IMG/VR virus record: IMGVR_UViG_3300046692_000144
Span: 85,621-149,620 of that record
Direction: 5' to 3' (one strand)
DNA: 64,000 nt
DNA from: a virus
Below, piece after piece: positions 9,923-45,503 of the stretch. Position 1 is the stretch's first letter; each line of letters begins with the position of its first letter. A program made the position numbers and the translations under genes. The notes beneath the pieces were generated by a model. The model saw only the letters and a program-made list of their open reading frames with translations, ran no database searches and was not told the origin of the DNA.

Positions 9923-11188
9923 ATGTCTACGAATTTTACGTTTCAACTACCATACATTCCACAGACCGTAGTCGTATTCGGTTGCGGTGGTACGGGCAGT
10001 CGATTGGTTCCACCGATTGCTCAACTGATGTCCACCCTCCAAACTCTGGTTGCTCCTGAGCTGGTTCTGGTGGACTTCGACGAAGTAGAGGAGAAGAACC
10101 TCGCTCGTCAAAACTTCGCCAAGTCCGACATCGGCAAGAACAAGGCTACTGCCCTGGCATCTCGTTACTCTAAAGCGTATCCGACTCTGAAGATCACTCC
10201 GATCACAGTAGCTGCGGGTACTCCGGAGTATGGCGAAGCGCTGGGTATGTTCAACCTGCAAGACCGTCTGACGGGTCCAGCAGCGTATATCCTGGCGGTG
10301 GACTCGGCCAAAGCTCGTCGTGAGATCCTTGCAAGGGCTCTGTCTCCACAATCGGGTTCGGGTAACTCCAGTATCGTAATCGACGCTGGTAACGAAGACA
10401 TCTTCGGCCAGGTGAGCTTCTTCACCACGGGCAAGATCGGAAAGAATTCGGCCAAGGACCTGGAATTCATCTACAACTGGTATCAGGGCATTATCCCAGG
10501 TGACATGATCCTGAGCGAATTCCCAATCGACGTAATGGCTTATCTGAACATGCAGGAAGGCCAGTCCACTAAGTCGTGTGCTGATCTCGATCAGACCCTG
10601 GCGATCAACAACCTGATGGCCGCTCAGGTAGTGGCGTACGTTCAGAACTTCTTGATGGGTAAGCCTGTTCGTTCGTGGCGTACCAACTTCGATCTGTTCA
10701 ACGGCGTAAGCTACGACACGATTTCCGTTCCGGAGGTTCTTCGCCGAGCGGTAGAAGCGAAAACCAAAGGTCGTGAGGGTGAGACCTTCTTGAGTAACAT
10801 CCATCAGCGTATGCGTGCAAGCTCGGCTCCGATGGACGTGGTGTTCACTGACCTGAGCTCGTCTCTGGAAGATGAAATGCTTTCGGAAACTCCAACTCGC
10901 TACGAGACTGCGAAGATGATTCGTACCTCGTTGAACATGGGTCAGTTTGAACCGAGCTTGTTGTTCGAGGCGGACTTCCCTGACTACTACACCGACGCTT
11001 TCAAAGCTCTGTGGCGTAAAGGGTTCGAGCTTCCAGAAACTTCGGAAGACGAACGCAATACCTACCAGGTTGCTCTGAAGATCATGGAGGAGATGCAAGC
11101 AGAGGTAGCCGCAGCGGCTGCCGCAACTCAAGTCCCTACCATGGCAACTACCGAAGCTGAAGAAGAGGAAGAAGCCGACGAAGATTGA
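9923..11188 (+). CDS. ThiF/E1-like adenylating enzyme, PRTRC system ThiF family
   Basis: 421 residues. Rossmann nucleotide loop VVVFGCGGTGSRL at residues 16-28 (G-x-G-x-x-G), then LVLVDFDEVEEKNLARQNF, in which the acidic residues and the Arg match the ATP-binding signature of ThiF/MoeB/E1 enzymes, and DIGKNKA with the conserved Lys. Such enzymes adenylate the C-terminal glycine of a ubiquitin-like protein. Together with the small GTKG-ending protein and the JAMM peptidase this completes the core of a PRTRC cassette. A separate catalytic Cys is not certain; C194 in the SCADLDQ region is one candidate. The C-terminal 40 residues are Ala- then Glu-rich, probably disordered. RBS GGAGAGG precedes the ATG. 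Confidence 0.85.
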   Translation: MSTNFTFQLPYIPQTVVVFGCGGTGSRLVPPIAQLMSTLQTLVAPELVLVDFDEVEEKNLARQNFAKSDIGKNKATALASRYSKAYPTLKITPITVAAGTPEYGEALGMFNLQDRLTGPAAYILAVDSAKARREILARALSPQSGSGNSSIVIDAGNEDIFGQVSFFTTGKIGKNSAKDLEFIYNWYQGIIPGDMILSEFPIDVMAYLNMQEGQSTKSCADLDQTLAINNLMAAQVVAYVQNFLMGKPVRSWRTNFDLFNGVSYDTISVPEVLRRAVEAKTKGREGETFLSNIHQRMRASSAPMDVVFTDLSSSLEDEMLSETPTRYETAKMIRTSLNMGQFEPSLLFEADFPDYYTDAFKALWRKGFELPETSEDERNTYQVALKIMEEMQAEVAAAAAATQVPTMATTEAEEEEEADED

Positions 11189-11246: not shown

Positions 11247-11639
11247 TTAGATAGAGATACGGGAGTACGCAAGTTCAAGAGTGTCGTCAGCCGTATAGAT
11301 CCCAAGGACAGAACCATCTTGACGATACATGGTCATGACCTTTGTAGACTTGTCCCACTCCCATGCACCAAGGGCTTGGTCCTCTAGATTACGGAGGATA
11401 GATAACTGACTACGACCTACGACTTCAAACGATTCAATCTTCTGACCATCAACGATAAGGTCGAAGACTCCGGTCTCAACTGGAGTGAAAGAAGCAGAGT
11501 ACCAATCAGTACCCACGATAGAAGTGCAGGTCACCGCAGTTGCATCCAAGGCCCCGTCTTTAAAAACAAACGACGTTACTGGGGCAGAACTTGAGTAAAG
11601 AGAGGCCCTAGCAGCAGAGCCTAGCTGTAGTTGCATCAT
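11247..11639 (-). CDS. Late protein, unknown (small virion protein candidate)
   Basis: 130 residues from the ATG at 11639, which overlaps the TGA of the upstream gene (ATGA); an in-frame TTG further upstream is a less likely start. The N-terminal half is beta-rich; the C-terminal half (GAWEWDKSTKVMTMYRQDG, LGIYTADDTLELAYSR) is a pattern I associate with small structural proteins of tailed phages, but I cannot name the family. Last gene of the eight-gene minus-strand operon that begins at 16622. Confidence 0.6.
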   Translation of the reverse strand: MMQLQLGSAARASLYSSSAPVTSFVFKDGALDATAVTCTSIVGTDWYSASFTPVETGVFDLIVDGQKIESFEVVGRSQLSILRNLEDQALGAWEWDKSTKVMTMYRQDGSVLGIYTADDTLELAYSRISI

Positions 11640-12163
11640 GTCCAAGACTCCATATGTTCGATGTACTTAGCCACTGCTTCGGCCTTGGCGGTACGGTCTT
11701 CGATTTCTTGTCCTTGTACAAGGCGATCCGGGAAGCAGACTTCTTGCAGGGCAATAGGTGCCTCCGAGTAACCTTCTTCATTCAGAAGCTTAGTTACCCC
11801 GATGCGGACTTCATCGTCGAATTCACCGTCTACAACGTTGTGAATCTCTACCGCAGCCCAAGCGATTTGTAGACTGTTTGGAAGAGGGAAGGTCTCAAAG
11901 TCAGCAGGGATGTTGTTAAAGACATCTGTAGCATGCAGGAAGAACAGAAGGTCCTGATAGAACATTTCAGGCTCCAGGACAAGAATACGAAGAACGTTGA
12001 TCTTGTCTAGGAGCAAAGGGCTCAAGGCCAATTCCATGTCGAGACTGATCGTCTCTGGTTCCAGGTCTACCCATTCCTCACCGTACTTAGAAGTGAGGAT
12101 TTTCAGTAGTGTCGGGAGGCGCACATTATCTGTGCCCTCCGAAGGTGATTTCAAATCGATCAA
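11636..12163 (-). CDS. Late operon protein, unknown
   Basis: 175 residues, acidic and helical, no signal peptide or membrane segment. Start ATG at 12163 overlaps the end of the upstream gene by four bases. No recognised motif. Operon position, with coupled starts on both sides, suggests a virion or assembly role. Confidence 0.65.
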   Translation of the reverse strand: MIDLKSPSEGTDNVRLPTLLKILTSKYGEEWVDLEPETISLDMELALSPLLLDKINVLRILVLEPEMFYQDLLFFLHATDVFNNIPADFETFPLPNSLQIAWAAVEIHNVVDGEFDDEVRIGVTKLLNEEGYSEAPIALQEVCFPDRLVQGQEIEDRTAKAEAVAKYIEHMESWT

Positions 12164-13020
12164 ACGAATCTCCCCAAGGCATTCTTCTCGTCAAGAGGCA
12201 GGGATTCCAGAACAGCCTTGTCATTACCGTAATCACCGGTCAGAGCGTCGGCTACGTCTTTACCCAGGATATCTCCAATATGGGCCGAACCCAGACGGGC
12301 GATCTTTTCAAATGGGACAGTCTTGCTGCCAAGGTTGATGTTGTATGAGGCTTCCTTTACGAATGCTTCTTTGTAGAAGTCCCCGTTATAGAAGTGTTCC
12401 TGATCTAGACTTACTACGGCCTTAGCTACGCTTGCACGTTTCTCTTGACCGCCCAGGTTAAGGCTTTCAACACCGAACTCGGTAACCACGGTAAGGATGT
12501 CGTTGTAGCGAGTATCACCTGTCTCGTAGGCACGCTTCTGCAATGCATTAGACACTTCGGATTCACCGAAAGGAAGACCGGCAGAGTACAGGCTGGTTTC
12601 GTAACCGAATGCTTGGCCATTGAATCGTGCAGTGATGTCTTCGGCGTAGCTAGCAACCTTGATCAGATCCTGGTGGAAGCCCAGGCTGCCACGAAGCACT
12701 TCTTCTTGTAGCTGCAAGCTCTCCTGAGCGTTGTAGAGCGACGCTTGCTTCTCGGCCATACCGAAGGCCTCGATACGAGATGCAAGCTTCTCAAGCTCAT
12801 CAGAGAGGCCGTAGGCCAAGACAGCACGGGAGACACGTTCTTGAGTTGCGTAGTCAACGGACTCACCAGCAACTTTGGTCAGGTAGGAGATTTGCAGACC
12901 GGACGCCAGAGCGGAGTCACGACTGTCTACTGGGAACTCTTCTGACAGGGAGGCTTCTTTTACCATCCCGACAGCTTCAGGGACGATTTGCAGAATGTTG
13001 TTTAGATCGTAGGCAAGCAT
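12160..13020 (-). CDS. Late protein with many K-x-A(S/A) motifs, inner-virion candidate
   Basis: 286 residues, Ala/Ser/Glu-rich and mainly helical. It contains at least seven short motifs of the form hydrophobic/charged-K-x-A-S (VKEAS, LEKLAS, AEKQAS, IKVAS, QEKRAS, VKEAS, FEKIAR), spaced through the chain. The same motif follows the N-terminal YLEK tag in other late proteins and occurs near the N-terminus of the major capsid protein, so these may be sites for the prohead protease. If so the protein would be cut into several peptides in the maturing head. No enzyme motif seen. Confidence 0.65.
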   Translation of the reverse strand: MLAYDLNNILQIVPEAVGMVKEASLSEEFPVDSRDSALASGLQISYLTKVAGESVDYATQERVSRAVLAYGLSDELEKLASRIEAFGMAEKQASLYNAQESLQLQEEVLRGSLGFHQDLIKVASYAEDITARFNGQAFGYETSLYSAGLPFGESEVSNALQKRAYETGDTRYNDILTVVTEFGVESLNLGGQEKRASVAKAVVSLDQEHFYNGDFYKEAFVKEASYNINLGSKTVPFEKIARLGSAHIGDILGKDVADALTGDYGNDKAVLESLPLDEKNALGRFV

Positions 13021-13022: not shown

Positions 13023-13538
13023 TTAGCTCCGGGTAATTACGTTGAGTGCATCTTCTTGGGTATTAGAACCCGGTTGGTCTTTTAGCATGCTCTTGACCAT
13101 ATTCATATTCTTACGGGCGTTCATAGCAGTATAGAACTTTGGAACTGCAATACCTGCACCGGCTGCTCGTACGGCAAGATCTGTTATACCTTTGCTTTTG
13201 AATACGGGTGCAGGCTCATTGAATGGTTCTCCTGCCCCGAGAGCTTCATACTTGGAGACTGAATGGTGGTACGCATTCATTGTTCCTTTTACGGTATCCA
13301 AGATAGGGTCTGCCAATATTAACGCAGTACCTGCAACTCCTAACCCAATATCCTTCCAGAACCGACTATCGGTTTTAGCACCTGCACGGATAGTATGCCC
13401 GTGATCCGTTAGGAGTTCGACCTTCTCGGAAAGTGGCAACGCCTTAAATCTAGGATCGGTAATAACACGATCCAAGCTTAGACCAGAAGCTTGATAATTA
13501 CTAATAAGCTTAAGGAACATGTCTTCATGTAGGGTCAT
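13023..13538 (-). CDS. Late operon protein with hydrophobic Gly/Ala segment
   Basis: 171 residues. A central hydrophobic stretch (DIGLGVAGTALILADPILD) resembles those of the YLEK-tagged proteins nearby, but this protein lacks the tag. Start overlaps the stop of the ligase gene by four bases. Function unknown; membrane contact during DNA entry is only a guess. Confidence 0.6.
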   Translation of the reverse strand: MTLHEDMFLKLISNYQASGLSLDRVITDPRFKALPLSEKVELLTDHGHTIRAGAKTDSRFWKDIGLGVAGTALILADPILDTVKGTMNAYHHSVSKYEALGAGEPFNEPAPVFKSKGITDLAVRAAGAGIAVPKFYTAMNARKNMNMVKSMLKDQPGSNTQEDALNVITRS

Positions 13539-14482
13539 ACAGTATCCAGTTCACCGTCAGCATCTCCGTTGTAGACAGGCTGACGTAGTTTTGTACCAGT
13601 AGGCGTCATCGCCTCAACCTGGATCAGCTTGTTTAACCAAGCGTTAGGGTGTTTGAAAATGTCTTCTCTGGTTCTACGGTCAAACCCCGTACCTACTTTG
13701 CCAACCTCACGTCCGGTAGCATCTTCCAACAGGAGAGCACCCGCACTAGGCTTAGGCTTACCGGAGATATCCTTCTCTTGAAGAATGGCTTTGACCTTTA
13801 GATTATAGTGGTTCTTATGCTTAAGTTTAACCCTCGGGTTCTTTGCCTCTGGAGCAGTAGGATCAAGGGTTATGACGCCTTCACGGCCTTCTTTTTTAGA
13901 TTTCTCAATGAGAGCGTTCATCCCCTCCACACCATGAGCATACTCAGGATGGAACATGAGATTGGTATCTCCGAAATCAGAGATCAATCCTTGTATGTGA
14001 GGAAGCTTATCGTTGAAGGTACTTACTCTAGGTTCGATCATGTCGAACACTACTGCTCGGATAGGACCGTCTTGAGACTGTTCCCTAATAGAACGCTCAG
14101 GAAGAGAGTTAAGTAGGCCAGATACTCGGGCATGTGACTCAAGGGCATAAGGATCGTGACCTGTATGAATAAGCTCTACGTTGTAAACCTTTCCTGCCTG
14201 AGACGGCAAAGTCTTGGCCAAGTGAGGAACTCGGTCAGCCTTCTCTATAACTGCACCTGTCACGGAAGGCCTACGGGAAACAAACGTAGGAATTCCGTAA
14301 TGGTCATAGCATAGAAAATACGAAGCGCCATCATATTTCAATGACGATAGCTTTGGTTTGTCATCACTACCTTTCTTGAAAGTGTCGTTGTATTTAGCAC
14401 GGGAATGCATAGAAGCAGATTTCTCCAGGTACGGGTTTGGATGTGGTGAGTTCATTGTAGTACCTGGAGAAGTATTGGTCAT
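13535..14482 (-). CDS. ATP-dependent DNA ligase with N-terminal NPYLEK tag
   Basis: 315 residues. Motif I is KYDGAS (about residues 49-54, adenylated Lys), motif III AVVFDMIEP, motif IV EGVITLDP, motif V KLKHKNHYNLKV. The C-terminal 70 residues (AGALLLEDATGREVGKVGTG ... R-Q-P-V-Y) look like the OB fold of small ATP-dependent ligases. Before the nucleotidyltransferase core lies an added segment containing NPYLEKSAS (about residues 16-24), the tag shared by many late proteins here. The gene sits in a late operon headed by a LigD-type 3'-phosphoesterase, not among early replication genes. It therefore appears to be made late and may be packed into the head to seal nicks or breaks in the genome. 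Packaging is inference. Confidence 0.85.
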   Translation of the reverse strand: MTNTSPGTTMNSPHPNPYLEKSASMHSRAKYNDTFKKGSDDKPKLSSLKYDGASYFLCYDHYGIPTFVSRRPSVTGAVIEKADRVPHLAKTLPSQAGKVYNVELIHTGHDPYALESHARVSGLLNSLPERSIREQSQDGPIRAVVFDMIEPRVSTFNDKLPHIQGLISDFGDTNLMFHPEYAHGVEGMNALIEKSKKEGREGVITLDPTAPEAKNPRVKLKHKNHYNLKVKAILQEKDISGKPKPSAGALLLEDATGREVGKVGTGFDRRTREDIFKHPNAWLNKLIQVEAMTPTGTKLRQPVYNGDADGELDTV

Positions 14483-15024
14483 TTAGAAAGAGAAGCTGCT
14501 TTCTGCAAATATTGGTTATGAACGCCTTCTAGGTATTCATCCGCCTTCTCTTCGCCACGGCCAAGAGCATGCTTAGTAGCAGAGTAAGCACCAAGACCCA
14601 TACCTGTGATACCTGCACCCATGATTACCAACGGATGCTTGGTCAGCAGCCTTGCCGAAGCCACCCCACCTACTCCACCCAAAAGCATTGCCCCTGCACC
14701 TTTCCAGGAAGCACCGTTATGAGCAAGACCGTCTGCCTTTCTGACCACGTCACTGCCGTAGTCTCGTTCAATGGTAGCGTTGATGTGACGGGTCTTCATT
14801 CGATCACGGACTAGACCATTCAGATCGGGTGTTACAACGTCACCGTTCTCATCTACGTAAGTCTCATCACGGAAGTCAGCGATAGCCTTCTGAGTTATAC
14901 GGCCTGGAATATGTCCTGCCCAATCACGGTGGTAGATCTCGTCAGCTTCTCGGTTGAGATTCTTACGGTAGTCTTTGAGATCTTGGTAGTGGCCTGCGAG
15001 TTTCTCTAGGTAGACGTTGGTCAT
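14479..15024 (-). CDS. YLEK-tagged late protein with Gly-rich hydrophobic segments
   Basis: 181 residues beginning MTNVYLEKLAG. A charged helical region (15-90) precedes a Gly/Ala hydrophobic hairpin-like part (GAGAMLLGGVGGVASARLL and PLVIMGAGITGMGLGAYSA), long enough for one or two membrane segments. Ends with QKAASLSK, a second K-x-A-S motif. Coupled to its neighbours. Probably an inner-head protein carried with the DNA; no enzymatic motif. Confidence 0.65.
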   Translation of the reverse strand: MTNVYLEKLAGHYQDLKDYRKNLNREADEIYHRDWAGHIPGRITQKAIADFRDETYVDENGDVVTPDLNGLVRDRMKTRHINATIERDYGSDVVRKADGLAHNGASWKGAGAMLLGGVGGVASARLLTKHPLVIMGAGITGMGLGAYSATKHALGRGEEKADEYLEGVHNQYLQKAASLSK

Positions 15025-15774
15025 TTACTTGTTCGCCTTTTCAATAGCTTTATTCTTTACATGCTTCGCCCAAGAAGCTGCGCCTACACCAGTTGCAGTA
15101 GCAGCTAAGTACGTACCGTATGCAGGGGCCATTTTCTTTAGGAACTTCTTAGCCACGCTGGCACCACGAGTCTTCAGGAGGTGTTTTGCAGGACTGAGAG
15201 ATGCTTGAGCCTCTTCCACTAGCATTGGTAGTGCAGAAGCAGCGACTGCGTACGGGGCTGCCTTTCGAACTTTCTCGTTATCGGAAGTAGCAGCATAACC
15301 GCCAGCCAATGCTCCTAGACCAAGAGCCGATCTTTGAGAAAGGGAGTGCATTATGAATTTACCCCTGACGCCTTTTCCACCGATGGCCTTCCGATACTTG
15401 TTGAAGCTGTGAGCGTGGCCATACTCATGCATTGCAAGGTCAGCACCTTTAGCATTTACGGTTGGACGCTTTACCCCCCTGAATCCAGGAGGGAGGTAGT
15501 GAGCAGCAAGCTCATGGTCGAACATCCCATTACCGCCCCTAATGACATGTCGTAGGTTTTTACTTTTCCGATAGGAGTTTACGTCTGACTCCGTAACTGC
15601 GGAGTTCCCTGCCAGGCCTTTGTGTGCGGCTCGTACCAGTCCATGGTTTATCGGGGTGGATAGGGCTATGGCCCCCGCAGTCGTCCCAACGACCGTACCG
15701 GTACGGGTCCACCCGTGTATGTGGTCCCTCTTTTTTTCAGTTGAAGCGATTTTCTCCAAGTAGATATTCATCAC
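15025..15774 (-). CDS. YLEK-tagged late protein with HEYGH zinc-peptidase motif
   Basis: 249 residues starting MMNIYLEKIAS. Around residue 115 the sequence DLAMHEYGHAHS contains HExxH, the zinc-binding and catalytic motif of metallopeptidases, followed by SLSQRSALGLGALAGGYAA and further hydrophobic Gly/Ala helices. A Gly/Thr-rich hydrophobic stretch (TVVGTTAGAIALSTP) lies near the N-terminus. A third zinc ligand cannot be identified with confidence, so peptidase activity is tentative. The next stop and start abut, so the gene is in the same transcript as ligase and 3'-phosphoesterase. Confidence 0.65.
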   Translation of the reverse strand: MMNIYLEKIASTEKKRDHIHGWTRTGTVVGTTAGAIALSTPINHGLVRAAHKGLAGNSAVTESDVNSYRKSKNLRHVIRGGNGMFDHELAAHYLPPGFRGVKRPTVNAKGADLAMHEYGHAHSFNKYRKAIGGKGVRGKFIMHSLSQRSALGLGALAGGYAATSDNEKVRKAAPYAVAASALPMLVEEAQASLSPAKHLLKTRGASVAKKFLKKMAPAYGTYLAATATGVGAASWAKHVKNKAIEKANK

Positions 15775-16622
15775 TTCTTATCCGAAAGTACGCCTACGAT
15801 AAATTCTCGTGCTCCGTCACCAGGTTCACGTTTCTTAGCGACCTTCTCCAAGAAGACGTTAGACTCGCTCGCCTTTTTATCATGCCCCTTATACGCTCGG
15901 TAGGCCGCATGTCCTATCATGGCCACACCTGTACCGATAGCTACCTTGCGAGTTACCTTGGCCGCAATATTTGCACGATCTACCATCTTCGAGTTCGTAG
16001 TGGCCCCGGTCACAAGCTCAGACATGTATCCTTTTGAAAATGGCTTTCCAGCAGCTTTTGCCTTAGCCATATAGTTTTCACGATGCAGTTCAATAGCAGG
16101 CTTCATCTTCTCCGCTACCTTCTTACCAAGGTACTTCGAGCTTGCAGCAAGGCCGAGGCCAGCATAGCCTTCCATCGCTACGGACGCATCGTTGTTCTTA
16201 GCAGCAGCGGCCTTTTCAAGGTAGGGGTTCTTGTCGTCCAACGCTTTCTTCCTGAGAAATAGCCAAGCCTTCTCACCGTAATGTTCAGGGGCTTTTTTGA
16301 TTAAGAAACGATCACCGTTGTTTAGCTCAAGATGATAGTCATTGTTGATTGTCTGGGAACTACCTTTCTGAGCGTAGTCTATTACTTGGGTACCTGCCCC
16401 GTACTGACCGTCAGGGATAACGATGCTTGGAGTAGTGGCGTAATGGGCCGTATGGACTGGCTGCTCCCATAGGATCGTAGGTTTACCTACTTCCGGGAAC
16501 TCCTTTTTAGACGCCCACGAAAAAGCTTTGTCATCAATTACGATTCTATAGTCGTAATGTAATCCCGCTCGTTTAGCGTCGTGCTTCTGTCTAACGAAAA
16601 GTACTGGGGTCGGATTCTTCAT
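15771..16622 (-). CDS. LigD-type 3'-phosphoesterase domain fused to YLEK-tagged segments
   Basis: 283 residues. Residues 1-125 match the 3'-phosphoesterase domain of LigD: FVRQKHDAKRAGLHYDYRI (9-27, with the metal-binding His14, His22 and Asp24), SWASKKEF, then IPDGQYGAGTQVIDY (69-83). LigD domains of this kind remove 3'-phosphates or 3'-ribonucleotides from DNA ends. After it come NPYLEKAAA (132-140), a hydrophobic helical part similar to other YLEK proteins, and NVFLEKVAK (255-263). The tag is thus internal and repeated, which would let a maturation protease cut the enzyme from its trailing parts. First gene of the late operon, with a late-promoter motif five bases before the ATG and no Shine-Dalgarno. 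Confidence 0.85.
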   Translation of the reverse strand: MKNPTPVLFVRQKHDAKRAGLHYDYRIVIDDKAFSWASKKEFPEVGKPTILWEQPVHTAHYATTPSIVIPDGQYGAGTQVIDYAQKGSSQTINNDYHLELNNGDRFLIKKAPEHYGEKAWLFLRKKALDDKNPYLEKAAAAKNNDASVAMEGYAGLGLAASSKYLGKKVAEKMKPAIELHRENYMAKAKAAGKPFSKGYMSELVTGATTNSKMVDRANIAAKVTRKVAIGTGVAMIGHAAYRAYKGHDKKASESNVFLEKVAKKREPGDGAREFIVGVLSDKK

Positions 16623-17410: not shown

Positions 17411-17908
17411 ATGGCGATTCGCCCTAGCACCACCGCTTCACCTCGGGATACGTTGAAATGTCTTCGACCTCACAAGGGTCTTATGTGTTTTAACTCCGAG
17501 GCAGGCCACTACGAGAAATACGCAGTGGTCACGGGAACCCCTAACAACGCGGGGTTCGTTCCTCTTGAAAAGCATGTAGGAGTAGTGCGCCTTGGCGTTA
17601 TCTACTTGAAGAATATCGGATCTGTTCGGAGTGGTTTCTATGCTGTCTTCCCTCGTGACATCTACCGTCGAAGAATCGACGCAAGACCCGTTCGACGACT
17701 CTCAATTGAGGAAGCAACTCTCCTCCTTGGAGGGAACCTTGATCACCTTGGATTGCCAGAAGCAACCCTTGGAGAACTCGATGCCTCAATCGAACCGCGA
17801 ACTATCGAAACTTCTCAGAGTGCAGAGCTCAGCGACGCTGACGTATGCTTCGAAGAACAAATCCGATCACTACAAGCTTCTGAAGATTCCGAAGAAGGGT
17901 GGTTATAG
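17411..17908 (+). CDS. Unknown protein overlapping the reverse transcriptase gene
   Basis: 165 residues; AGGAGG precedes the ATG. N-terminal half mixed beta (KYAVVTGTPNNAGFVPLEKH), C-terminal third acidic (SEDSEEGWL). Its last 128 bases overlap the start of the RT gene in another frame, and 278 bases if the RT uses the earlier GTG. Retrons often encode an accessory effector next to the RT; whether this is one cannot be told. Such a long out-of-frame overlap implies coupled or competing translation. Confidence 0.6.
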   Translation: MAIRPSTTASPRDTLKCLRPHKGLMCFNSEAGHYEKYAVVTGTPNNAGFVPLEKHVGVVRLGVIYLKNIGSVRSGFYAVFPRDIYRRRIDARPVRRLSIEEATLLLGGNLDHLGLPEATLGELDASIEPRTIETSQSAELSDADVCFEEQIRSLQASEDSEEGWL

Positions 17909-18743
17909 GGTCGTTTACAACCCAAGCAATCTCATGCGTTTGTTGCAGTTCCGAATCTTGAAGGAGGTCCTAGAGAAGTACTTCGAGATCCCGGATTACA
18001 TTTACGCTTTCGAACGGGATAAATCTATCCCGGTCATGGCGAAGATGCATGAGGGTAGCTTGCAAGTTGTAAGCCTTGACATCAAGGACTACTTTCCGAG
18101 CATTAAGCAAAACGTTCTGAAAGACTTGATGCAAAGCGTCGGCTTCGGAGAGTCTCCGGCCCGCACCTTGTCGGAGCTTATGACCTTAGGGCCAAATGTT
18201 CCGCAGGGTGGATTGACCAGTCCAAAGATTAGCAACGTGGTTGCCTCTAGGACTTTCGGGCCTGTGGTAAAGAAGTTCTGCGAAGACAGGGGCCTGGCCC
18301 TTACCATCTACGCAGATGACATCACGATTTCTTCGAAGGCAGACTTCAACGCCCAAGAAGCTATCGAGTTCGTGTCTGGGGTTCTCGTCGGCTTTGGCTT
18401 CCGGGTCAATAAGGCTAAGACGAAAGTAATGAAGAAAGGTACTCGACGCAGTCGTTTGTATGTGTGCGGTACCGTTGTGAACGAGAAGGTGAATCTCCTC
18501 CGGAACGAGCGTCTTCGGTTAAGAGCCGTCGTTCACAACAGTGTTAAAAATGGTCTGGAAGCAGAAGCGTCTAAGACCGGTCTCACCGCAAACGAATTCT
18601 TAATGAGAGTTCGTGGCAAGCTCAACTGGTTTGGACAGCTAAACCCTGAAGGGTCTTCGAAACTCATCGAACGATTCCAAGGGGCATGCACGGATTGGGA
18701 AGTGATCAACCGATCAACTCCTTACCAACACCAGCCTGGGTAA
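17781..18743 (+). CDS. Retron-type reverse transcriptase
   Basis: 320 residues from ATG 17781, chosen because GGAG lies six bases upstream and the length is typical of retron RTs; a GTG at 17631 would add 50 residues without better support. Motifs: KIPKKGGYRVVYNP (35-48), VSLDIKDYFPSI (97-108, first catalytic Asp), VPQGGLTSPKISN (140-152), IYADDITIS (176-184, catalytic YADD), and LYVCGTVVNEK (226-236) where retrons have their VTG motif. The C-terminal thumb (RGKLNWFGQLNPE) also has the retron pattern. All catalytic residues are intact. I could not find a convincing msr-msd RNA; upstream DNA is occupied by the overlapping gene. Role could be defence against rival phages or counter-defence. Confidence 0.88.
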   Translation: MPQSNRELSKLLRVQSSATLTYASKNKSDHYKLLKIPKKGGYRVVYNPSNLMRLLQFRILKEVLEKYFEIPDYIYAFERDKSIPVMAKMHEGSLQVVSLDIKDYFPSIKQNVLKDLMQSVGFGESPARTLSELMTLGPNVPQGGLTSPKISNVVASRTFGPVVKKFCEDRGLALTIYADDITISSKADFNAQEAIEFVSGVLVGFGFRVNKAKTKVMKKGTRRSRLYVCGTVVNEKVNLLRNERLRLRAVVHNSVKNGLEAEASKTGLTANEFLMRVRGKLNWFGQLNPEGSSKLIERFQGACTDWEVINRSTPYQHQPG

Positions 18744-20679: not shown

Positions 20680-20783
20680 CCCACCTGATTTTCAACTTCG
20701 TTACAGAACATCCCATCAGCATGATCGCTATCGTAGCTGCCTTGATACTTTGGGGGGCGGATATGGTGATAGGCTCTAAGTAG
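20676..20783 (+). CDS. Second tiny membrane peptide
   Basis: 35 residues, MTHLIFNFVTEHPISM then a hydrophobic helix (IAIVAALILWGADMVIG) ending SK. Coupled to the previous peptide. Its last eight bases overlap the end of the convergent YLEK-tagged gene. Confidence 0.6.
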   Translation: MTHLIFNFVTEHPISMIAIVAALILWGADMVIGSK

Positions 20784-21630
20784 AAGAACCCGTCGCGTGC
20801 GATATTGCAGCGGCGGTTCTTTTTAGGTGTGCAGAAGTAGGATTACCTAGATACTTATACGCTTCATGCTTAAAGCCGCCTACCGGAACCTTAGACTCTG
20901 CACCATGTTTGAGAGGGTTTGTGATGAAAGTCTTCTTGAGGAAATCTACGGCTTTCTTACCGTACTTGTTTCCTTGAACAGCCTTGCTCCCTGCAAGAGC
21001 TTTTGCACCGTCGAGAATAGCTGCACCAGGTTCAATAGGAGCTACGGACATTGCGCTTAGCAACGGCAGTGCCTGAGTGTGCTTGCCGGGAACAAAGTTA
21101 GATCCTACTGGGACCTTACCATGACCAATGTTCTTAGCAATGTTACTGAGCAACGGATGACTTTTGTCCTTCCACAGTTTTGACAATTCACCTAAGTGCT
21201 TATCGCTAAGGTTTTTGATCGTCGGCAGGTGCTTCTGAAGAACTCCGTGAACCGCCTTAACTACGGGGTCCTCGTGCATATTCAGTTTCTTAAGCGTATC
21301 GAACTTACCTTCTACAGCCATTCGTGCAGCAGCTCGTTGACGTTTGGTAGCACCATGAAGGACTTCACTGAGATGACCGCCAGCCTCATGAGCAGCGGTG
21401 TGAGCCGCAGCCACGTCTGGGGTAATTACCGACGTTGCACTCCTCGCAGCCTTTGCTTTGAAAGATTTGTTTACTACACCGTGGTATCCCTCAGTAAAAG
21501 AGTTGGCGAGGTACTTCGCAACCTTCTTACTCTTGAGAGCTTGGTTGGTAGCGATGTTCTGTGCAAGGTGAGAAATGGCAGTACCAGCCAAGAGGCTAGA
21601 CTGTTTCTCCAGGTAGGGGTTCTTAGTCAT
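20776..21630 (-). CDS. YLEK-tagged late protein
   Basis: 284 residues beginning MTKNPYLEKQSSLLAG. Basic, Ala/His/Lys-rich and helical. It contains AAHEAGGHLSEVL, which resembles but does not match the HExxH zinc motif. Late motif and very short leader upstream (CTAAAATTCATCC then ATG). Probably an inner-head or DNA-associated virion protein given its tag and basic character. Confidence 0.65.
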   Translation of the reverse strand: MTKNPYLEKQSSLLAGTAISHLAQNIATNQALKSKKVAKYLANSFTEGYHGVVNKSFKAKAARSATSVITPDVAAAHTAAHEAGGHLSEVLHGATKRQRAAARMAVEGKFDTLKKLNMHEDPVVKAVHGVLQKHLPTIKNLSDKHLGELSKLWKDKSHPLLSNIAKNIGHGKVPVGSNFVPGKHTQALPLLSAMSVAPIEPGAAILDGAKALAGSKAVQGNKYGKKAVDFLKKTFITNPLKHGAESKVPVGGFKHEAYKYLGNPTSAHLKRTAAAISHATGSST

Positions 21631-23525: not shown

Positions 23526-23696
23526 TTAGTGAAGAGAAGCTTTGATTCGTTGGATCAACGGCGTTTTGGCCATTGAGTGAAACCCGAAATTGCGTTTCAT
23601 CGAGCCCGCAGACCGAATGAGACCGGCAGCTCCACCAACCTTAGTAACCGGCAGCTTCAGGATCGAAGCCGCCTTCTCTAGATACCGATTATCCAT
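23526..23696 (-). CDS. Small YLEK-tagged protein between sheath and tube
   Basis: 56 residues starting MDNRYLEKAASILKLP. The rest is basic with Gly/Ala (VGGAAGLIRSAGSMKR) and ends IQRIKASLH. Its ATG overlaps the sheath stop by one base (TAATG). The perfect YLEKAAS tag shows the frame is real despite its small size. Likely a packaged or cleaved peptide; function unknown. Confidence 0.75.
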   Translation of the reverse strand: MDNRYLEKAASILKLPVTKVGGAAGLIRSAGSMKRNFGFHSMAKTPLIQRIKASLH

Positions 23697-28677: not shown

Positions 28678-29370
28678 TTAGTAGTAATACGATTGAGGAA
28701 GAGCTTCGCTCTTCTTTTTGCCATTGGCGTAAGCGAGACTGATACCTGCAATTCCACCGTAGGCACCTACTCTTGCTTTGCTCTGTTGGCCATGTAGCTT
28801 CTTTAGTTTATCAAGGTTTGCACCAGTCACCATGTCTTTTTGAGACTTTCTTTTGGCGCTGACGAATTTATGATAAGCAGGAGTATTATCCCCGAAAGTA
28901 TCCAAGCCCATTTGTTTGATCTTACCGCCATTGGCAGTGTTCAAAACATCCAGACCAGTGTTAACAACTTTTGCAGTACCCTTGGCAGCCAAGCTACCTG
29001 CTTTTTTAGCGTAGGTCACAGTCTTCTTTGCGAGGCTGACTGAGTTAGAAGCAACTCCCGCCTGCTTGTTCAAGAAGAGTTCTTGCATGTTCTTTGAGGC
29101 TATTCGGTTCTGGTGTTCTCGGTACGCACTCGCCCCGTAGATACCGGCAGCAGCAATCGCAGCCAGCCCTCCACTGGTCTTCATTCTGGCCTTGAAGGTC
29201 CTTTGTCCAGAATTGTGGATGCGCTTAGTCAGACCCTCGACCGTATCATTGTTGGCAATCGCTCGCTCAAAGTGATACTTCCGGGCCGTAAGGTCCTTGT
29301 GTTCTTTACCAGTTAAGTCCTTCCAAAAGTCATACATGGAAGCGGCTTTTTCGAGATATGGATTTGACAT
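28678..29370 (-). CDS. YLEK-tagged late protein
   Basis: 230 residues beginning MSNPYLEKAASMYDFW. Lys/Ala-rich and helical with short hydrophobic patches (SGGLAAIAAAGIYGASAY). Contains another K-x-A site (LNKQAGVASNS, about residue 105). It directly follows the major capsid gene on the transcript after a terminator and has its own late motif 3 bases upstream of the ATG. Inner-head protein candidate. Confidence 0.68.
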   Translation of the reverse strand: MSNPYLEKAASMYDFWKDLTGKEHKDLTARKYHFERAIANNDTVEGLTKRIHNSGQRTFKARMKTSGGLAAIAAAGIYGASAYREHQNRIASKNMQELFLNKQAGVASNSVSLAKKTVTYAKKAGSLAAKGTAKVVNTGLDVLNTANGGKIKQMGLDTFGDNTPAYHKFVSAKRKSQKDMVTGANLDKLKKLHGQQSKARVGAYGGIAGISLAYANGKKKSEALPQSYYY

Positions 29371-29457: not shown

Positions 29458-30345
29458 TTAGAAGTTGATAACAGCAGCGCCGTTGACGTTGCCGAAACCG
29501 ATGCCGACAGACTCGTAAGTCTTGAAGGATAGCAGGTCAGCTTCAGTCTTCAGATATACCATCGCGTCTTGCATGATGTACATCTGACCCAGGTACTGGG
29601 TAGGAGCGAAAACGATCATCTGGTTGTTCGGCAGGATATCGTTCTTGTTGGTAACGATGATCTGGTTGCCGTACGGGGTAGCTACACCAGTTTGGCCCAT
29701 GAACAGAGCCGAAGCTGCGTCCGAACCGATCTGGGTGGCTGGCTGAGCCATGAAGTCAGCATACATTTCCTGAGTCATCAGGATCTTGCCGACAGGCAGT
29801 TGCTTAGCCAATAGTTTCTTCACGCCAGCTTGGAAGTTGACCATGTTGAAACCACCAGAGATGGTGTAAACGTTGCTAGCAGCGGTAGCCATTGCCAGGA
29901 CGTTAGCGTAGAAGCTGGTATCTTCTACCTTTTGGATATCTTTAACACTGTTCTCTTGCAGAACGGTGCGGATATCGGTGCGGTAGGTAGCCAGTTCGAA
30001 CTTCGACTTCTTGAACTCTTTACTCTCGATCTTCGAGAAGTTCACGGCGTAACGATCGCCTTTGAAGTAGCGCAGTTCTGCACGACCACGGAAGCCCATC
30101 GAGGCTGCTACCGAATCAGGTTCTTTCTCGATGATGATCTGAGGTTCGTCGGTCAGACCACGATCCAGATCAGCAGCGGTAACCATTTGCGGTTCCATGA
30201 TTTTGCGGGTAAAGCCGTCTTCACGAAGCTTCTGACGCACGAATGCGCTAGCAGCTACCGAAGCTTCCTTCTCCATGCCGTTATCGACCTTATCGATGAA
30301 CGATTGGTTGAGGAATTGAACGTTAGTAGTTTCAGTACCGTACAT
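29458..30345 (-). CDS. Major capsid protein
   Basis: 295 residues, HK97-type inferred. It has a P-domain/E-loop-like region (MGFRGRAELRYFKGDRYAV), a helical middle (DFMAQPATQIGSDAASALF) and a C-terminal beta part ending VGIGFGNVNGAAVINF. Residues 25-29 are EKEAS, the same K-x-A-S motif that follows the YLEK tags, so the first 29 or so residues are probably removed by the prohead protease. Flanked by a decoration-like protein upstream and a strong terminator downstream; codon choice is strongly biased, as in highly expressed genes. Confidence 0.85.
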   Translation of the reverse strand: MYGTETTNVQFLNQSFIDKVDNGMEKEASVAASAFVRQKLREDGFTRKIMEPQMVTAADLDRGLTDEPQIIIEKEPDSVAASMGFRGRAELRYFKGDRYAVNFSKIESKEFKKSKFELATYRTDIRTVLQENSVKDIQKVEDTSFYANVLAMATAASNVYTISGGFNMVNFQAGVKKLLAKQLPVGKILMTQEMYADFMAQPATQIGSDAASALFMGQTGVATPYGNQIIVTNKNDILPNNQMIVFAPTQYLGQMYIMQDAMVYLKTEADLLSFKTYESVGIGFGNVNGAAVINF

Positions 30346-31384: not shown

Positions 31385-31396
31385 TGTATTTTAATG
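31385..31396 (-). promoter_or_regulatory. Late-class promoter, CATTAAAATACA
   Basis: Minus-strand motif overlapping the stop codon of the upstream YLEK-tagged gene, about 25 bases before the scaffold-like start. Confidence 0.55.
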
Positions 31397-31768
31397 CGTC
31401 GAAACAAGTTCGGCTGCTTTGTGAAGGTATTTGTTCTTTCGAGAGTCATCAAGAGCGGCAACGCCCTTCATCGCCCCGTAAGAACCGATAGCTCCTAAAA
31501 CGTGGGCACCGACTTCGCTACCTAGGTGAGTACCTGTGATAACTGCGTCCTTACCGAACAATTTTCGACCTATGGCTTGAGCCATTGGTTTAGCAGCGAT
31601 TAGTTTACCCAGAGGTTTTGAACCTAGACGCCCGCCTATAAGGCCACCGGCAAGACCTGCGGCCACGCCAAGACCTTCTGACAGAGCAAAGGTTTTCTCA
31701 GTACTTGTGCGTTTCGGATTAAGAGGGAGTACCGCTTCAGCGATCTTCTCTAGATATACGTTTGACAT
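31391..31768 (-). CDS. YLEK-tagged late protein with Gly-rich hydrophobic segment
   Basis: 125 residues beginning MSNVYLEKIAEAVLPL. Hydrophobic Gly-rich stretch (GLGVAAGLAGGLIGGRLG) similar to those in the other tagged proteins; ends LHKAAELVSTH. Preceded by a minus-strand terminator of the upstream gene. Function unknown; inner-head candidate. Confidence 0.65.
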   Translation of the reverse strand: MSNVYLEKIAEAVLPLNPKRTSTEKTFALSEGLGVAAGLAGGLIGGRLGSKPLGKLIAAKPMAQAIGRKLFGKDAVITGTHLGSEVGAHVLGAIGSYGAMKGVAALDDSRKNKYLHKAAELVSTH

Positions 31769-32243: not shown

Positions 32244-33683
32244 TTAGGCCTGGACAGCGGCCAGAGCTTGGTTAAAGGTGTAGCCGTCGTTCATCAGTTC
32301 ACTCATGGCGGCTTCTTTGGTCATAGCTTTTTTAGCTGCTACGCCAGCACCGGCTGCAACAGCAGTACCACCGGCTACGGCAAGTTTACCCTTGTTACGC
32401 TTAACAGCGTTAGAGGCCATATGCTTACCACGAATTTTAGCCATGGTTGGATTGGTTTTGCGCAAACTCTTATATTTAGCCACATCTTTGCCTAGTTGGC
32501 CAACTTCTTTTCGAAGAGGGTCTGCAACTTTGTTAGCAAGACTTTTAATGGTGGAGCCTACGCTAGCTTCTTTGACCAGTTCAACTGCATCATCAAACGA
32601 GTGACCTTCGGCCAAAAGTTCAGACAGTGCAGCTTGCTTGCTCATAGCTTTGTTTACACCTGCGGTAACTGCACCAGCAGCAAGAGATCCACCGGCTACG
32701 CTCAGAGGAATAACGTTGCGCTTCAAAGCACTTTTCAAACGAGCTTTACCGACGGTTGAGGCATCGCCTGGCGAGTGCTGCTTCATGTACTTGTACGCAG
32801 AGACGTCATCTTTAAGGTTGCGACCCTCGGCCTTAACTGCGCCAACAGCAGCGCCGCCTTTAGCCTTGATGGTGTTCAGGGCGCCTTTAGCGAGGTCACC
32901 TAGACCAGCTTCTTTGATCATCTCAGCAGCGTCTTCGAAGCGGTAGCCTTCATCTAGCAGACCCTGGAAAGCAGCTTGCTTGTCCATTTCTTCGTACTGG
33001 GATTCTTCAACTTCAGAAGCAGCTTTGATCAGGGCAACTGCGTCGTCAACCGAATAACCTTCTTCGGTCAAAGCGTGGAAGGCAGCTTCTTTCTGAAGCT
33101 CTTCGTCAGCCATAGATACCAGAGAAGCAGCATCATAGAAAGAGTGGCCTTGGGTGACCAGTTCGGTAACCGCAGCAGCTTTCTGCATGTTGTCTTCTAC
33201 ACGGTCAACGAGGTCTACGCTGGTAGCGGTAGCAGATGGAGTGGTCAAACCTTTCTGAATAGACTCAGTTGTCTGAGATTCAACAGTGCCACCGCTTTGT
33301 TCAGCGTTAGCATTTACTTGGGTCTGGGCAGCGGCGAGTTCAGCATTTTCTTGGTGAGCAAGATGCGGCTGTGCTTCGACGGTGCTGGCTTCTTTGACCA
33401 AAGTGGTTTGTACGGAAGCAGCAAGCTCAGAAAGCTTATCGCCCAGAATTACTTCGGGTTCAGCGACAACTTCAGATGCAGCTTTCTCCATCAGACGTTG
33501 GGCCAGTTGACGGCCTAGGTCACTAGCTTCACCGGCAAGGGCGGAAGCAGACTTAGTCATCAGGGCTGACCGCAGCTCTTCGGCAACGTTCGGAACGTTG
33601 ACTTCAGGAGCTTCGCTAGCCTGCTTCTCTTGACCTTCCGAACCGGACAGATCAGCGATAAGCTGGTTGATATCAAAATTCAT
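32244..33683 (-). CDS. Helical-repeat late protein (five repeats), core/scaffold candidate
   Basis: 479 residues. N-terminal half is acidic and Ala-rich with K-x-A sites (EKQASEAPEV, LMEKAASEVV). Then follow five repeats of about 27 residues with the core (E/D)GYSFDDAVALI, each introduced by QKAAA, QKEAA, DKQAA, SKQAA or TKEAA, separated by basic linkers (KAEGRNLKDDVSAYKYMK, KLAVAGGTAVAAGAGVAA). The repeats recall UBA-like helical hairpins, though family membership is not established. Probably an internal head protein processed into repeat peptides. Followed on the transcript by its shorter paralogue. Confidence 0.65.
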   Translation of the reverse strand: MNFDINQLIADLSGSEGQEKQASEAPEVNVPNVAEELRSALMTKSASALAGEASDLGRQLAQRLMEKAASEVVAEPEVILGDKLSELAASVQTTLVKEASTVEAQPHLAHQENAELAAAQTQVNANAEQSGGTVESQTTESIQKGLTTPSATATSVDLVDRVEDNMQKAAAVTELVTQGHSFYDAASLVSMADEELQKEAAFHALTEEGYSVDDAVALIKAASEVEESQYEEMDKQAAFQGLLDEGYRFEDAAEMIKEAGLGDLAKGALNTIKAKGGAAVGAVKAEGRNLKDDVSAYKYMKQHSPGDASTVGKARLKSALKRNVIPLSVAGGSLAAGAVTAGVNKAMSKQAALSELLAEGHSFDDAVELVKEASVGSTIKSLANKVADPLRKEVGQLGKDVAKYKSLRKTNPTMAKIRGKHMASNAVKRNKGKLAVAGGTAVAAGAGVAAKKAMTKEAAMSELMNDGYTFNQALAAVQA

Positions 33684-33751: not shown

Positions 33752-33764
33752 TCTAGTTTAACTC
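33752..33764 (-). promoter_or_regulatory. Late-class promoter, GAGTTAAACTAGA
   Basis: Minus-strand motif overlapping the protease gene stop, 70 bases before the five-repeat gene. Confidence 0.55.
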
Positions 33765-35353
33765 GGATTACCTTTGACGATTTGACTATGAGCTGCGCTA
33801 AGCACCTTCAAAGCCACTGTCAATTTAGCATTTCCTTTACTTGGAGACTGTAACGCAGATACTGCCTTGGACAGAGCCTTGAGCGGTACGGTAGCCTTAC
33901 GATCTTCAAAAGACATTTCATGTGCAGCAGACATGCTTGCCATCTTAACAATGGTAGGCATACTACGTTCCTGGGACTGAGCGAGACGCTTCTCGATTAT
34001 AGAGTTAATGTACGCTTTTGCCCATAGAGCAGCACCGCCAATAGCAATAAGAGTCGAGATCGGATTCTCCGCAGCAGCCTGAAGTAAAGTGCGTTCAGGA
34101 TTCGCCAAGTGTCTCTGGCGATCCAGGTCTCTACGAATATCTTCTTCTCTGATAGGGATTTTAGGACCCATACCGGAATAACCAGTAGTAGTAACGTATG
34201 CACGCTTCTCTACGAACTCAGGGAATAGTGAACTAGTGTCCTGGTACTTACTAAGTACCTGACTAACCAGAGGACTCACTTTACGATCTACGTTCATCTC
34301 AGTATCTGGAATAGAAATACCAGAAAGCTTTGATTCGTGCAGGGCCTTGAGAACCTTCGAACCAATTCCAGGGCCGCCGTGGCCCATACGGAATGCAATG
34401 ATCTCCGCAAGGAACTTCAGGCTAGGGCTGATGCCTAGTTCACCGAAGGTCTGGAAGAGTTCATCCATAGGCACTGATTCGAGCTTACGAACATCCTCAA
34501 TGTCTGGGTCCTGAATCTGAGCAAGGATATTCTCCATGTTCTTATCAGTGCCCTGAACGTAGCCTTCGATCTCTTTGATTAGTTCGGAGACTTTGGCAAG
34601 GGATGCTTTCTTAACTCGATCTTCGCCATAGCTAAGACCTTCTTCTTCACCCAGCAACGCAGAGGATACTGCACCATCTTCGTTTGCAACTTTCTGCAAT
34701 ACCGAGCTGGTGATGTCCGCAGGTTTAACTACGATACTGATGTCGAAGAAACGCAGTGGAGCAGAGTTAATAGACATGACCCGACGGCCATCCGGCATTA
34801 CGCGACCCAAGTGTTGTTTCAGGTGGACGCAGTACTCTTGACGGGTGTGGGCTTTGTTATGGCAAATAGAGCAAACATCGTAGGGTGTCTTACACGCCAT
34901 GGATGTTGCTGGGAAATCACCGGCTGCAATACGACTCTCCACGTCAGAACCAAGACCGCGATCTACTTCTGCAACCAATTCAACTCGGTGCATGCGTTCG
35001 TTGTACAAGGCAAAGATAACCCGACCGATAGCACGGGCAGGATCTTTGTTGATGTGGTGACGGAAAACGTGGGCCGGGGAGGTCTCAAAAGTCTTGTAGT
35101 AGAGCTTCAGAGTTTCTTCAGGGAAGTAGTCGCCATTGCGGTTAGGGCCGTAGAACTCACCGGCCCCCATCGCATTGATATGCAGATACATTTTCCCAGG
35201 CTGAATCTTTAGGTTGTCCATGACGTACGATTTGACTCGATCGTCAGCGGCAGCCTTGGTCAGTTCTTCCTGAATGCCGGGACCGCTCAGGATAGTTACC
35301 TGGAGATCTTCAGCGTCGAAGAATGAACTGCTATCAATGAGTTTGTACATCAA
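33758..35353 (-). CDS. Prohead maturation protease-like protein
   Basis: 531 residues. N-terminal 230 residues resemble phage prohead proteases: NRNGDYFPEETL, FRHHINKDPARAIGRVI (candidate catalytic His), ELVAEVDRG and GDFPATSMAC (candidate nucleophile Ser), then a Cys/His cluster CSICHNKAHTRQEYC that is probably a zinc site. The C-terminal part is helical with scaffold-like sequence and several K-x-A sites (VKKASLAK, VKMASMSA). A fused protease-scaffold that processes itself and other K-x-A proteins is a reasonable model. Catalytic residues are inferred from pattern only. Confidence 0.65.
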   Translation of the reverse strand: MMYKLIDSSSFFDAEDLQVTILSGPGIQEELTKAAADDRVKSYVMDNLKIQPGKMYLHINAMGAGEFYGPNRNGDYFPEETLKLYYKTFETSPAHVFRHHINKDPARAIGRVIFALYNERMHRVELVAEVDRGLGSDVESRIAAGDFPATSMACKTPYDVCSICHNKAHTRQEYCVHLKQHLGRVMPDGRRVMSINSAPLRFFDISIVVKPADITSSVLQKVANEDGAVSSALLGEEEGLSYGEDRVKKASLAKVSELIKEIEGYVQGTDKNMENILAQIQDPDIEDVRKLESVPMDELFQTFGELGISPSLKFLAEIIAFRMGHGGPGIGSKVLKALHESKLSGISIPDTEMNVDRKVSPLVSQVLSKYQDTSSLFPEFVEKRAYVTTTGYSGMGPKIPIREEDIRRDLDRQRHLANPERTLLQAAAENPISTLIAIGGAALWAKAYINSIIEKRLAQSQERSMPTIVKMASMSAAHEMSFEDRKATVPLKALSKAVSALQSPSKGNAKLTVALKVLSAAHSQIVKGNPS

Positions 35354-35790
35354 TCTTCCTTCCTAATAATCGAAGGCCAGTAATCGCCAGCGACATGATT
35401 CCGATACAGATAACTCTTCACAGGACCCTCGGTAGCCGATTCACTGTCCAGAGTCTGAACATTTCCTGCGGAGGCCAGTCCAATGCCAGATACAGCACCC
35501 AAACCATAGCCTATGCCAGCACCTATAACGGAGTTAAGAACTCTGCCTTTCCAAGAACTCGCCATCAATGGTGATGTACCAATTAAACCACCTAGACCTG
35601 CTCCGATTACTCCGAAAACTTTAGCACCATCACTCTTCTGACTTTGGAAGTGGGGTTGCAACTGGGATATAGCAATGCGACGTCTAGCCGCATCCGTCAC
35701 ATGAAACTCCCACTCCCTATCCGGGTCGTTGTACACCCCGTCTTCCAGAGAGACCATTGCTGCAATTTTCTCAAGATAGACGTTAGTCAT
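35350..35790 (-). CDS. YLEK-tagged late protein with Gly-rich hydrophobic segments
   Basis: 146 residues beginning MTNVYLEKIAAMVSLEDG. Two hydrophobic Gly-rich stretches (VFGVIGAGLGGLIGTSPLM and SVIGAGIGYGLGAVSGIGL), long enough to cross a membrane. Its stop overlaps the protease start by four bases. Candidate ejected inner-head protein. Confidence 0.65.
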   Translation of the reverse strand: MTNVYLEKIAAMVSLEDGVYNDPDREWEFHVTDAARRRIAISQLQPHFQSQKSDGAKVFGVIGAGLGGLIGTSPLMASSWKGRVLNSVIGAGIGYGLGAVSGIGLASAGNVQTLDSESATEGPVKSYLYRNHVAGDYWPSIIRKED

Positions 35791-45256: not shown

Positions 45257-45279
45257 CAAGGTAGCGGTTCAGGTATAAG
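45249..45279 (+). promoter_or_regulatory. Early-class promoter, TTCAAT-N19-TATAAG, with leader hairpin
   Basis: TTCAAT 45249-45254 overlaps the stop of the preceding gene; TATAAG 45274-45279; GAAG...CTTC pairing just downstream. Confidence 0.75.
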
Positions 45280-45329
45280 GATAGTGTAGAAGGAATATAT
45301 CTCTTCAACAATAAATAGCAGGTGAGACG

Positions 45330-45503
45330 ATGGCCGAGATAATGGGTTTGGATTCATACCCTCAGGAAACACGTTCTGAGGCGGTAGTGAACTACGCAGC
45401 AGCAGCATTCCTCGTTGGGTTGGCAGTTCTTGCCATTGGTTCCGGCGTCGGCATCCTCGTTGGTAAATTCAAAACACCGAAAACCGAACCGAACGCTTCG
45501 TAA
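45330..45503 (+). CDS. Small single-span membrane protein
   Basis: 57 residues, MAEIMGLDSYPQETRSE then hydrophobic helix (YAAAAFLVGLAVLAIGSGVG) and basic tail (KFKTPKTEPNAS). GCAGGTGAG lies before the ATG. Same topology as its neighbours: acidic outside, Gly-rich helix, basic inside. Confidence 0.65.
   Translation: MAEIMGLDSYPQETRSEAVVNYAAAAFLVGLAVLAIGSGVGILVGKFKTPKTEPNAS

Follow-up and report, generated by a model that had tools for sequence, protein, structure and literature searches.

A stretch of 64,000 nucleotides (the window; bases 85,621-149,620 of the 165,460-base virus record IMGVR_UViG_3300046692_000144, hereafter G000) contains a minus-strand operon that encodes a LigD-type 3'-phosphoesterase (PE) and a small ATP-dependent DNA ligase. 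We found that the two genes form a linked pair among related phages, that the active-site residues of both enzymes are conserved, and that both proteins carry a short tag, NxYLxKxA, which in relatives joins the PE to virion-protein families. What the sequences show is the identity of the genes, their linkage, the conservation of catalytic residues, purifying selection, the tags and these fusions; on this basis, we suggest that the pair is a DNA-end-repair cassette carried as virion cargo. Taken as a whole, with packaging, ejection and repair on entry included, we judge this account to be evenly balanced between right and wrong.

The phosphoesterase and ligase genes

The first gene of the operon (15771..16622, minus strand) encodes 283 amino acids, and residues ~5-127 were assigned to a LigD-type PE domain by Pfam LigD_N, by matches to PDB LigD-PE profiles and by a model and fold search. 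The LigD_N match passed its cut-off of 31.1 with 34.3 bits and an E-value of 2.8e-8, and the stricter NCBIfam LigD_PE model gave 35.6 against a threshold of 144, indicating that the PE is not a LigD equivalog. The predicted structure (mean predicted local distance difference test, pLDDT, 51.1) is fair in residues 1-127 (pLDDT ~50-85) and poor past residue 127, and the remainder of the protein after the tag is a low-confidence helical part rich in Ala, Lys and Gly. When the modelled residues 1-127 were compared with PDB structures, the top six entries were all LigD-PE (Z 6.9-8.4), the next row scoring 4.1, and the top five Foldseek matches of the domain belonged to the LigD-PE family alone.

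In the accessible text of a review (PMC8656161), the Mn ligands of LigD PE are His42, His48 and Asp50, and the phosphate ligands are Arg52, His84 and Tyr88, with Gln40, Ser61 and Glu82 as helpers. The equivalent residues here are H14, H22, D24, R26, H57, Y61, Q12, S35 and E53, respectively, and all of them are invariant in 19 of 19 PE sequences (the window, G002-G006, G010-G018, G020, G029, G030 and G032). Judged by profile, active-site residues and predicted barrel fold, the domain belongs to the LigD 3'-phosphoesterase family, and its activity is predicted accordingly from these features. It has the sequence family (PF13298), the fold and all active-site residues in common with the archaeal stand-alone PEs (3p43, 3p4h and 5dmp) and the PE of Pseudomonas LigD (3n9b), but differs from them in that it lies outside any LigD, has a two-residue insert ahead of LHxDxR and is joined by the tag to virion-protein families. 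A search of the PE protein against a collection of 50,697 phage records gave zero matches.

The fourth gene (13535..14482, minus strand) encodes a minimal ATP-dependent DNA ligase of 315 amino acids (probably nucleotidyltransferase plus OB), which matched PHROG 114 (ATP-dependent DNA ligase; phrog_114) at 2e-20, aligned with KVP40 gp30 and scored only below the cut-off with the Pfam ligase domains. Residues K49, D51, G52, R70, E103, E201 and K219, which we take to represent motifs KxDG, SR, E (III), EG (IV) and K (V), are invariant in 19 of 19 ligase sequences. The ligase searched alone against viral contigs gave no match, and a two-row alignment retrieved G002 only.

Both enzymes are under purifying selection. 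In the pair G003/G004, the nonsynonymous (pN) and synonymous (pS) values were 0.016 and 0.54 for the PE, and 0.032 and 0.689 for the ligase. The gp100-like part fused to the PE in these genomes has a pN of 0.321, twenty times that of the PE, indicating that the PE is strongly conserved while its fused partner drifts.

The operon runs from 16,622 to 11,247 and consists of eight genes with intergenic gaps of -10 to +2 bases; two genes (15025-15774 and 14479-15024) separate the PE from the ligase. It lies in a head/baseplate setting, away from the replication genes. A first-pass annotation of this DNA had described an intact LigD-type PE at the head of a late operon and an ATP-dependent ligase three genes on; both genes were confirmed, with exact coordinates, and loss of catalytic residues, which that annotation had named as a sign against its idea, was seen in neither enzyme across the 19 sequences. 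As for the late operon, the tight spacing of its eight genes held up and two of them are homologous to the virion proteins gp242 and gp243 of Salmonella phage Arash, and lateness itself is a matter of sequence type, by which the operon is classed as late-type.

The linkage of the two genes was examined in relatives retrieved with a four-row capsid-protein alignment, which gave 49 related IMG/VR loci; 37 records were searched, the others being small or not chosen. The PE was present in 19 of the 37 and the ligase in 18. Both genes occurred together in 18 records, on one strand and within ~5 kb, the ligase never occurred alone, and 18 records had neither. The sole PE-only record, G001, has the PE at its contig end. 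This association is strong (Fisher p 1.1e-9), with the proviso that the 37 records are akin to one another and not independent. In a tree built from 39 capsid proteins, from which G001 was left out as a copy of the window's phage, one clade has 26 members; 19 of them have the PE, and the other seven are fragments of 22-85 kb. The sister clade, which includes Arash, Vibrio phage D69 and seven records of at least 172 kb, has the PE in none of its 13 members. With fragments excluded, a single change on this tree accounts for the distribution of the PE. The PE/ligase pair marks one clade on the capsid-protein tree. A host scan of genome contigs returned two short contigs only and no usable host.

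The NxYLxKxA tag and the fusion partners of the phosphoesterase

The first-pass annotation had also noted a YLEK tag in both proteins. It is indeed present at residue 18 of the ligase (NPYLEKSAS, residues 16-24; 14411..14437, minus strand) and at residue 134 of the PE protein, where the site (NPYLEKAAA, residues 132-140; 16203..16229, minus strand) is internal, directly behind the PE domain, rather than N-terminal. The PE protein has a second site, NVFLEKVA, close to its C-terminus (residues 255-262, FLEK at 257; 15837..15860, minus strand). YLEK occurs in seven other open reading frames (ORFs) of the window (15025, 14479, 20776, 23526, 28678, 31391 and 35350). When N-terminal tags were defined as [YF][LIM]xKx[AS] within the first 40 amino acids and compared with the expectation from shuffled sequences, the whole record G000 contained 10 against 1.2 expected (the tag at 24,725 being probably spurious), G002 contained 6 against 0.6, and G003 contained 6 against 1.1. 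One tag lies outside the window, in an SNF2-type helicase (MNPYLIKIA..., record positions 44,816-46,288). In Arash, YL-type N-terminal tags were at chance level only.

A looser core of the tag, φxKxA, is enriched in the late minus-strand genes (70 sites against 23.5 expected; 60 against 50.6 in the remaining genes). The excess is strongest in the scaffold-like protein (32244..33683, minus strand), which has 12 sites, the probable head maturation protease (33758..35353, minus strand; phrog_18299, 4.4e-8) and the gp242-like protein (12160..13020, minus strand; 1e-43 to Arash gp242), which has eight. The major capsid protein (29458..30345, minus strand; phrog_2522, 1.6e-15) carries GMEKEAS at residues 23-29, and its KEA[SG] is at the same position in 39 of 39 relatives. 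Arash likewise shows an excess of φxKxA in gp220-gp223, gp225, gp226 and gp242, including its capsid protein, protease and scaffold-like proteins. Since φxKxA recurs in the capsid protein, the scaffold-like protein and the head protease, the simplest reading is that NxYLxKxA would be a head-maturation cleavage/targeting site, this lineage's counterpart of the T4 capsid-targeting peptide. A YL-type site stands behind the N-terminal PE in 19 of 19 PE proteins, and because the tag is also kept internally with the PE before it, a cut site is favoured over a strictly N-terminal signal. We dropped a cut after the E of YLEK, as in T4 and SPN3US; the E varies (YLIK, YLTK, YLVK, YLQK), and the K and mostly the A stay.

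The T4 internal proteins are described, in the accessible part of PMC9958956, as bearing a capsid-targeting peptide of ~10 residues that is cut by the head protease. The likeness lies in a short N-terminal peptide common to many small head-associated proteins and close to a site that the capsid protein and scaffold also have, and in ADP-ribosyltransferase (ART)-like cargo. The differences are that the motif here is NxYLxKxA, that the site is sometimes internal, and that the cargo has DNA-repair enzymes, SNF2 and ferritin-like domains.

The PE is N-terminal in all 19 proteins and the part downstream varies: the partner belongs to the gp100 family in seven, SNF2 (gp217 family) in five, a ferritin-like domain in three (G012, G020 and G029) and a gp96/ART-like protein in one (G002; BLASTP 9e-16 against Arash gp96), and is unrecognised in three (the window's own, G006 and G015). 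In G003, the point of fusion between the PE and the gp100-family part coincides with the N-terminal tag of a separate window gene at 20776-21630. Six manually assigned partner states need nine changes on the capsid tree. Eight more records have a separate SNF2 gene between the PE and the ligase, tagged in seven. In the purified-particle proteome of Arash (PMC10585845), gp217 was detected with 38 unique peptides and 1148 spectra, gp96 with 15 and 816, gp100 with 9 and 471, gp242 with 21 and 550, and gp243 with 12 and 359. All three tagged families with a detected Arash homologue (gp100, gp217 and gp96) are therefore in its virion list.

The ferritin-like partners are EncFtn-like, over the cut-off in one of three, and separate tagged proteins of 72 amino acids with this domain occur in G016, G017 and G032; these small domains, fused or alone, are at L142:5579-6349, L149:2107-2808, L150:2192-3235, L146:4871-5089, L147:4221-4439 and L152:4119-4337. 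A five-sequence profile matched bacterioferritin at 5.1e-8 and encapsulated ferritins at ~2e-3 in the PDB. All five sequences have E27, E57 and H60, with a spacing that presumably fits the EncFtn ferroxidase ligands.

The ligase tag reads NAYLIKVAS in G002 and is missing in G003 and G004. In seven of the nine tagged ligases the tag is borne by an extra N-terminal domain of ~150 amino acids (L143:4298-5662, L144:3994-5358, L145:4089-5465, L146:5089-6450, L147:2860-4221, L151:2746-4107 and L152:2758-4119), for which Pfam and PDB sequence searches returned no relatives. A helix-hairpin-helix/glycosylase identity for this domain of the 453-458-aa ligases was dropped, the Pfam score being 13.5 bits and the PDB sequence search unsupportive. 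These ligases also contain a second, internal tag-like site, IQKQAS (YLQKAA in L145).

Neighbouring genes and other tagged proteins

Between the PE and the ligase, the gene at 15025..15774 (minus strand) encodes a tagged protein of 249 amino acids (MMNIYLEKIAS...), which contains the HExxH-like HEYGH and is possibly a metallopeptidase, Pfam giving no family over the cut-off; the gene at 14479..15024 (minus strand) encodes a tagged protein of 181 amino acids (MTNVYLEKLAG...) that ends in a further tag-like site, NQYLQKAAS, C-terminally. Downstream of the ligase, a gene at 13023..13538 (minus strand; 171 amino acids) is conserved in G002, and beyond the gp242 homologue lies that of Arash gp243 (11636..12163, minus strand; 6.1e-21).

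The other tagged products are all encoded on the minus strand. That of 20776..21630 (MTKNPYLEKQSS...) belongs to the Arash gp100 family, is encoded apart from the PE and has an N-terminal tag of its own; its identification as a zinc protease (AAHEAGGH) was dropped, the motif not being kept among relatives. The others are proteins of 56 (23526..23696), 230 (28678..29370) and 146 amino acids (35350..35790), and a Gly-rich protein of 125 amino acids with a C-terminal NKYLHKAAE (31391..31768). The head protease has its own φxKxA sites. At L137:3935-4762, G004 encodes a tagged protein of 275 amino acids where G003 has a different tagged protein of 147 amino acids; this difference shows that cargo genes turn over fast between close relatives.

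A retron-like reverse transcriptase gene (17631-18743, plus strand) adjoins the PE operon divergently; its best PADLOC models are RT type III-A (7.5e-61) and Ec107-like, it is the same neighbour in G002, and G003 has a homologue elsewhere. No Rfam families were found near this gene or the PE operon. On the other side, a JAB-domain gene (8559-9581, plus strand) lies beside a ThiF (E1-like) gene (9923-11188, plus strand), and the start of Arash gp246, a protein in the Arash virion list, appears ThiF-like by eye. Multisubunit RNA polymerase genes at 51074-54430 and 49926-51077 (minus strand) both match portions of Arash gp206, and one at 42831-44651 (minus strand) matches gp216. In the early plus-strand part of G000, many adjacent ORFs of ~100 amino acids with similar starts, perhaps an expanded gene family, are found at record positions ~5.2-6.7, 14.4-16.1, 30-32.5 and 42.5-44.2 kb.

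Proposed mechanism and alternative explanations

In the mechanism that we propose, the late operon would yield the LigD-type PE and the small ligase; in many relatives, an SNF2-type helicase is located between the two. Tagged proteins would be taken into the core of the prohead, the head protease would cut at the tags and free the PE, and PE and ligase would remain in the head to be ejected with the genome. The PE would then convert 3'-phosphate or 3'-ribonucleotide ends to ligatable 3'-OH ends, which the ligase would seal, mending nicks that arose inside the particle or through nucleases of the host. The parts that we infer are cleavage at the tag, the packaging of both enzymes and their ejection, together with their substrate and their purpose.

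The first-pass annotation had proposed a virion-packed end-repair kit. The pair itself, its conserved residues, strong purifying selection, linkage and the fusion of the PE to virion-protein families support this in part; what does not fit is that 10 of 19 ligases have no N-terminal tag (nine have it) and that the probable cut would fall downstream of the PE. Maturation would then part the PE from its fusion partner, and the PE could even be discarded if heads of this lineage behave like those of SPN3US, which usually lose the N-terminal pieces of 111-254 residues removed as propeptides, according to the accessible part of PMC10052503. Several further observations also weigh against virion cargo. 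First, Arash, the source of the virion data, has neither the PE nor this ligase. Second, its list comprises 116 proteins, some of which its authors note as perhaps merely abundant in the lysate, for example ribonucleotide reductases (PMC10585845); with 116 of 252 coding sequences listed, three out of three would arise by luck with a probability of ~0.1. Third, the cassette shows no 5'-kinase or gap-filling polymerase, so that only some ends (a 5'-phosphate plus a blocked or ribonucleotide 3' end) would be mendable. Finally, two of 19 ligases (G002 and G029) have Val in place of the second lysine of motif V, and the ligase model (mean pLDDT 39.5) is too poor for a fold search of the nucleotidyltransferase and OB parts.

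Comparison with known systems sets the cassette apart. Arash has capsid, portal, protease, RNA polymerase, tail and SNF2 genes in common with the window phage, but the PE, the linked ligase and above-chance YL-type N-terminal tags are only on the window-phage side. The giant phages SPN3US and phiKZ (prohead protease gp245) resemble the picture proposed here in having many head proteins, cut propeptides and a virion RNA polymerase, but SPN3US is cut at AXE, as far as the available text of PMC10052503 goes, and their capsid lineage may be unrelated to that of the window phage. In the mycobacteriophages Omega and Corndog, a phage Ku borrows the host LigD, as stated in the accessible part of PMC7719229; these phages and Ku-LigD non-homologous end joining likewise bring the activities of a PE and a ligase together in a single pathway and show phage use of end joining. 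Here, PE and ligase are on separate genes, unlike the single PE-POL-LIG polypeptide, the ligase is of the T4/minimal rather than the LigD type, and the enzymes are phage-encoded and tagged. The first-pass annotation saw no Ku gene in the window and advised a search for a Ku or polymerase partner elsewhere; Ku (PF02735) was found in 0 of 6 records and LigD polymerase (POL, PF21686) in 0 of 8, records that may be fragments. Since neither was found, the cassette does not appear to be a Ku-LigD pathway, the mycobacteriophage arrangement in which a phage Ku works with LigD of the host, or classical bacterial end joining.

A bolder version of the cargo account, which we hold tentatively and consider somewhat unlikely, is a capsid-loaded genome-maintenance compartment. 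NxYLxKxA would load the heads of one clade with PE, SNF2 and ligase, to which some members would add a small EncFtn-like ferroxidase. This kit would protect the packaged genome by limiting its iron-driven oxidation and would mend its 3'-blocked breaks while the DNA enters the cell or soon afterwards, the PE being a movable N-terminal module freed by head maturation. Encapsulins, whose shells have the HK97 fold, load ferritin-like cargo by means of a peptide, and the shell and ferritin-like cargo of this version would echo encapsulin loading.

Among the alternatives, the strongest, though unlikely in our view, is that the two are ordinary intracellular repair or replication enzymes, which would seal nicks in replicating or concatemeric DNA late, before packaging, the tag denoting membership of the late head group and not delivery. 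The untagged ligases fit this, and the enzyme is maybe the phage's only ligase, as Pfam found no other ATP-dependent ligase in four PE-carrying records, by a profile that misses this ligase too. However, the genes are in a head/baseplate operon and not among replication genes, the PE is fused to virion-protein families, and the sister-clade phages Arash and D69 encode a different ligase in another region. Less probable still is that the PE is an assembly-stage module, which acts in the prohead, for example by removing 3' ends at which the packaging motor would stall, or is simply carried along as a propeptide, and is cut off and lost at maturation. Its position ahead of the site in 19 of 19 proteins and the SPN3US propeptides agree with this, but retention of all active-site residues and a pN twenty times below that of the partner are unlike a disposable leader, and linkage with the ligase implies joint repair. 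That the pair heals RNA or DNA ends left by host nuclease defence just after entry, rather than random damage, seems very improbable: neighbouring cargo includes gp96/ART-like proteins comparable to T4 Alt, and T4 IPI is, in the accessible part of PMC9958956, an injected anti-nuclease protein, but the ligase groups with DNA ligases (phrog_114, KVP40 gp30) and not RNA ligases, and there is no known defence target.

Singly, each enzyme adds a new member to a known family; what is new is the cassette, tagged and linked, with changing partners and based on head-protein families, within the known class of virion-packaged internal proteins. Phages pack RNA polymerases, ADP-ribosyltransferases and anti-nuclease proteins. 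No description of a LigD-type PE as phage head cargo was found in the open-licence literature, a scope outside which most subscription papers fall. If the cargo account is true, some phages also carry genome repair in, and the survival of DNA damage by long-lived virions would become directly testable. With the tag as a rule, head cargo could be predicted from sequence in the relatives of Arash, a lineage about which little is known, and the tag may be a new address label for capsid loading.

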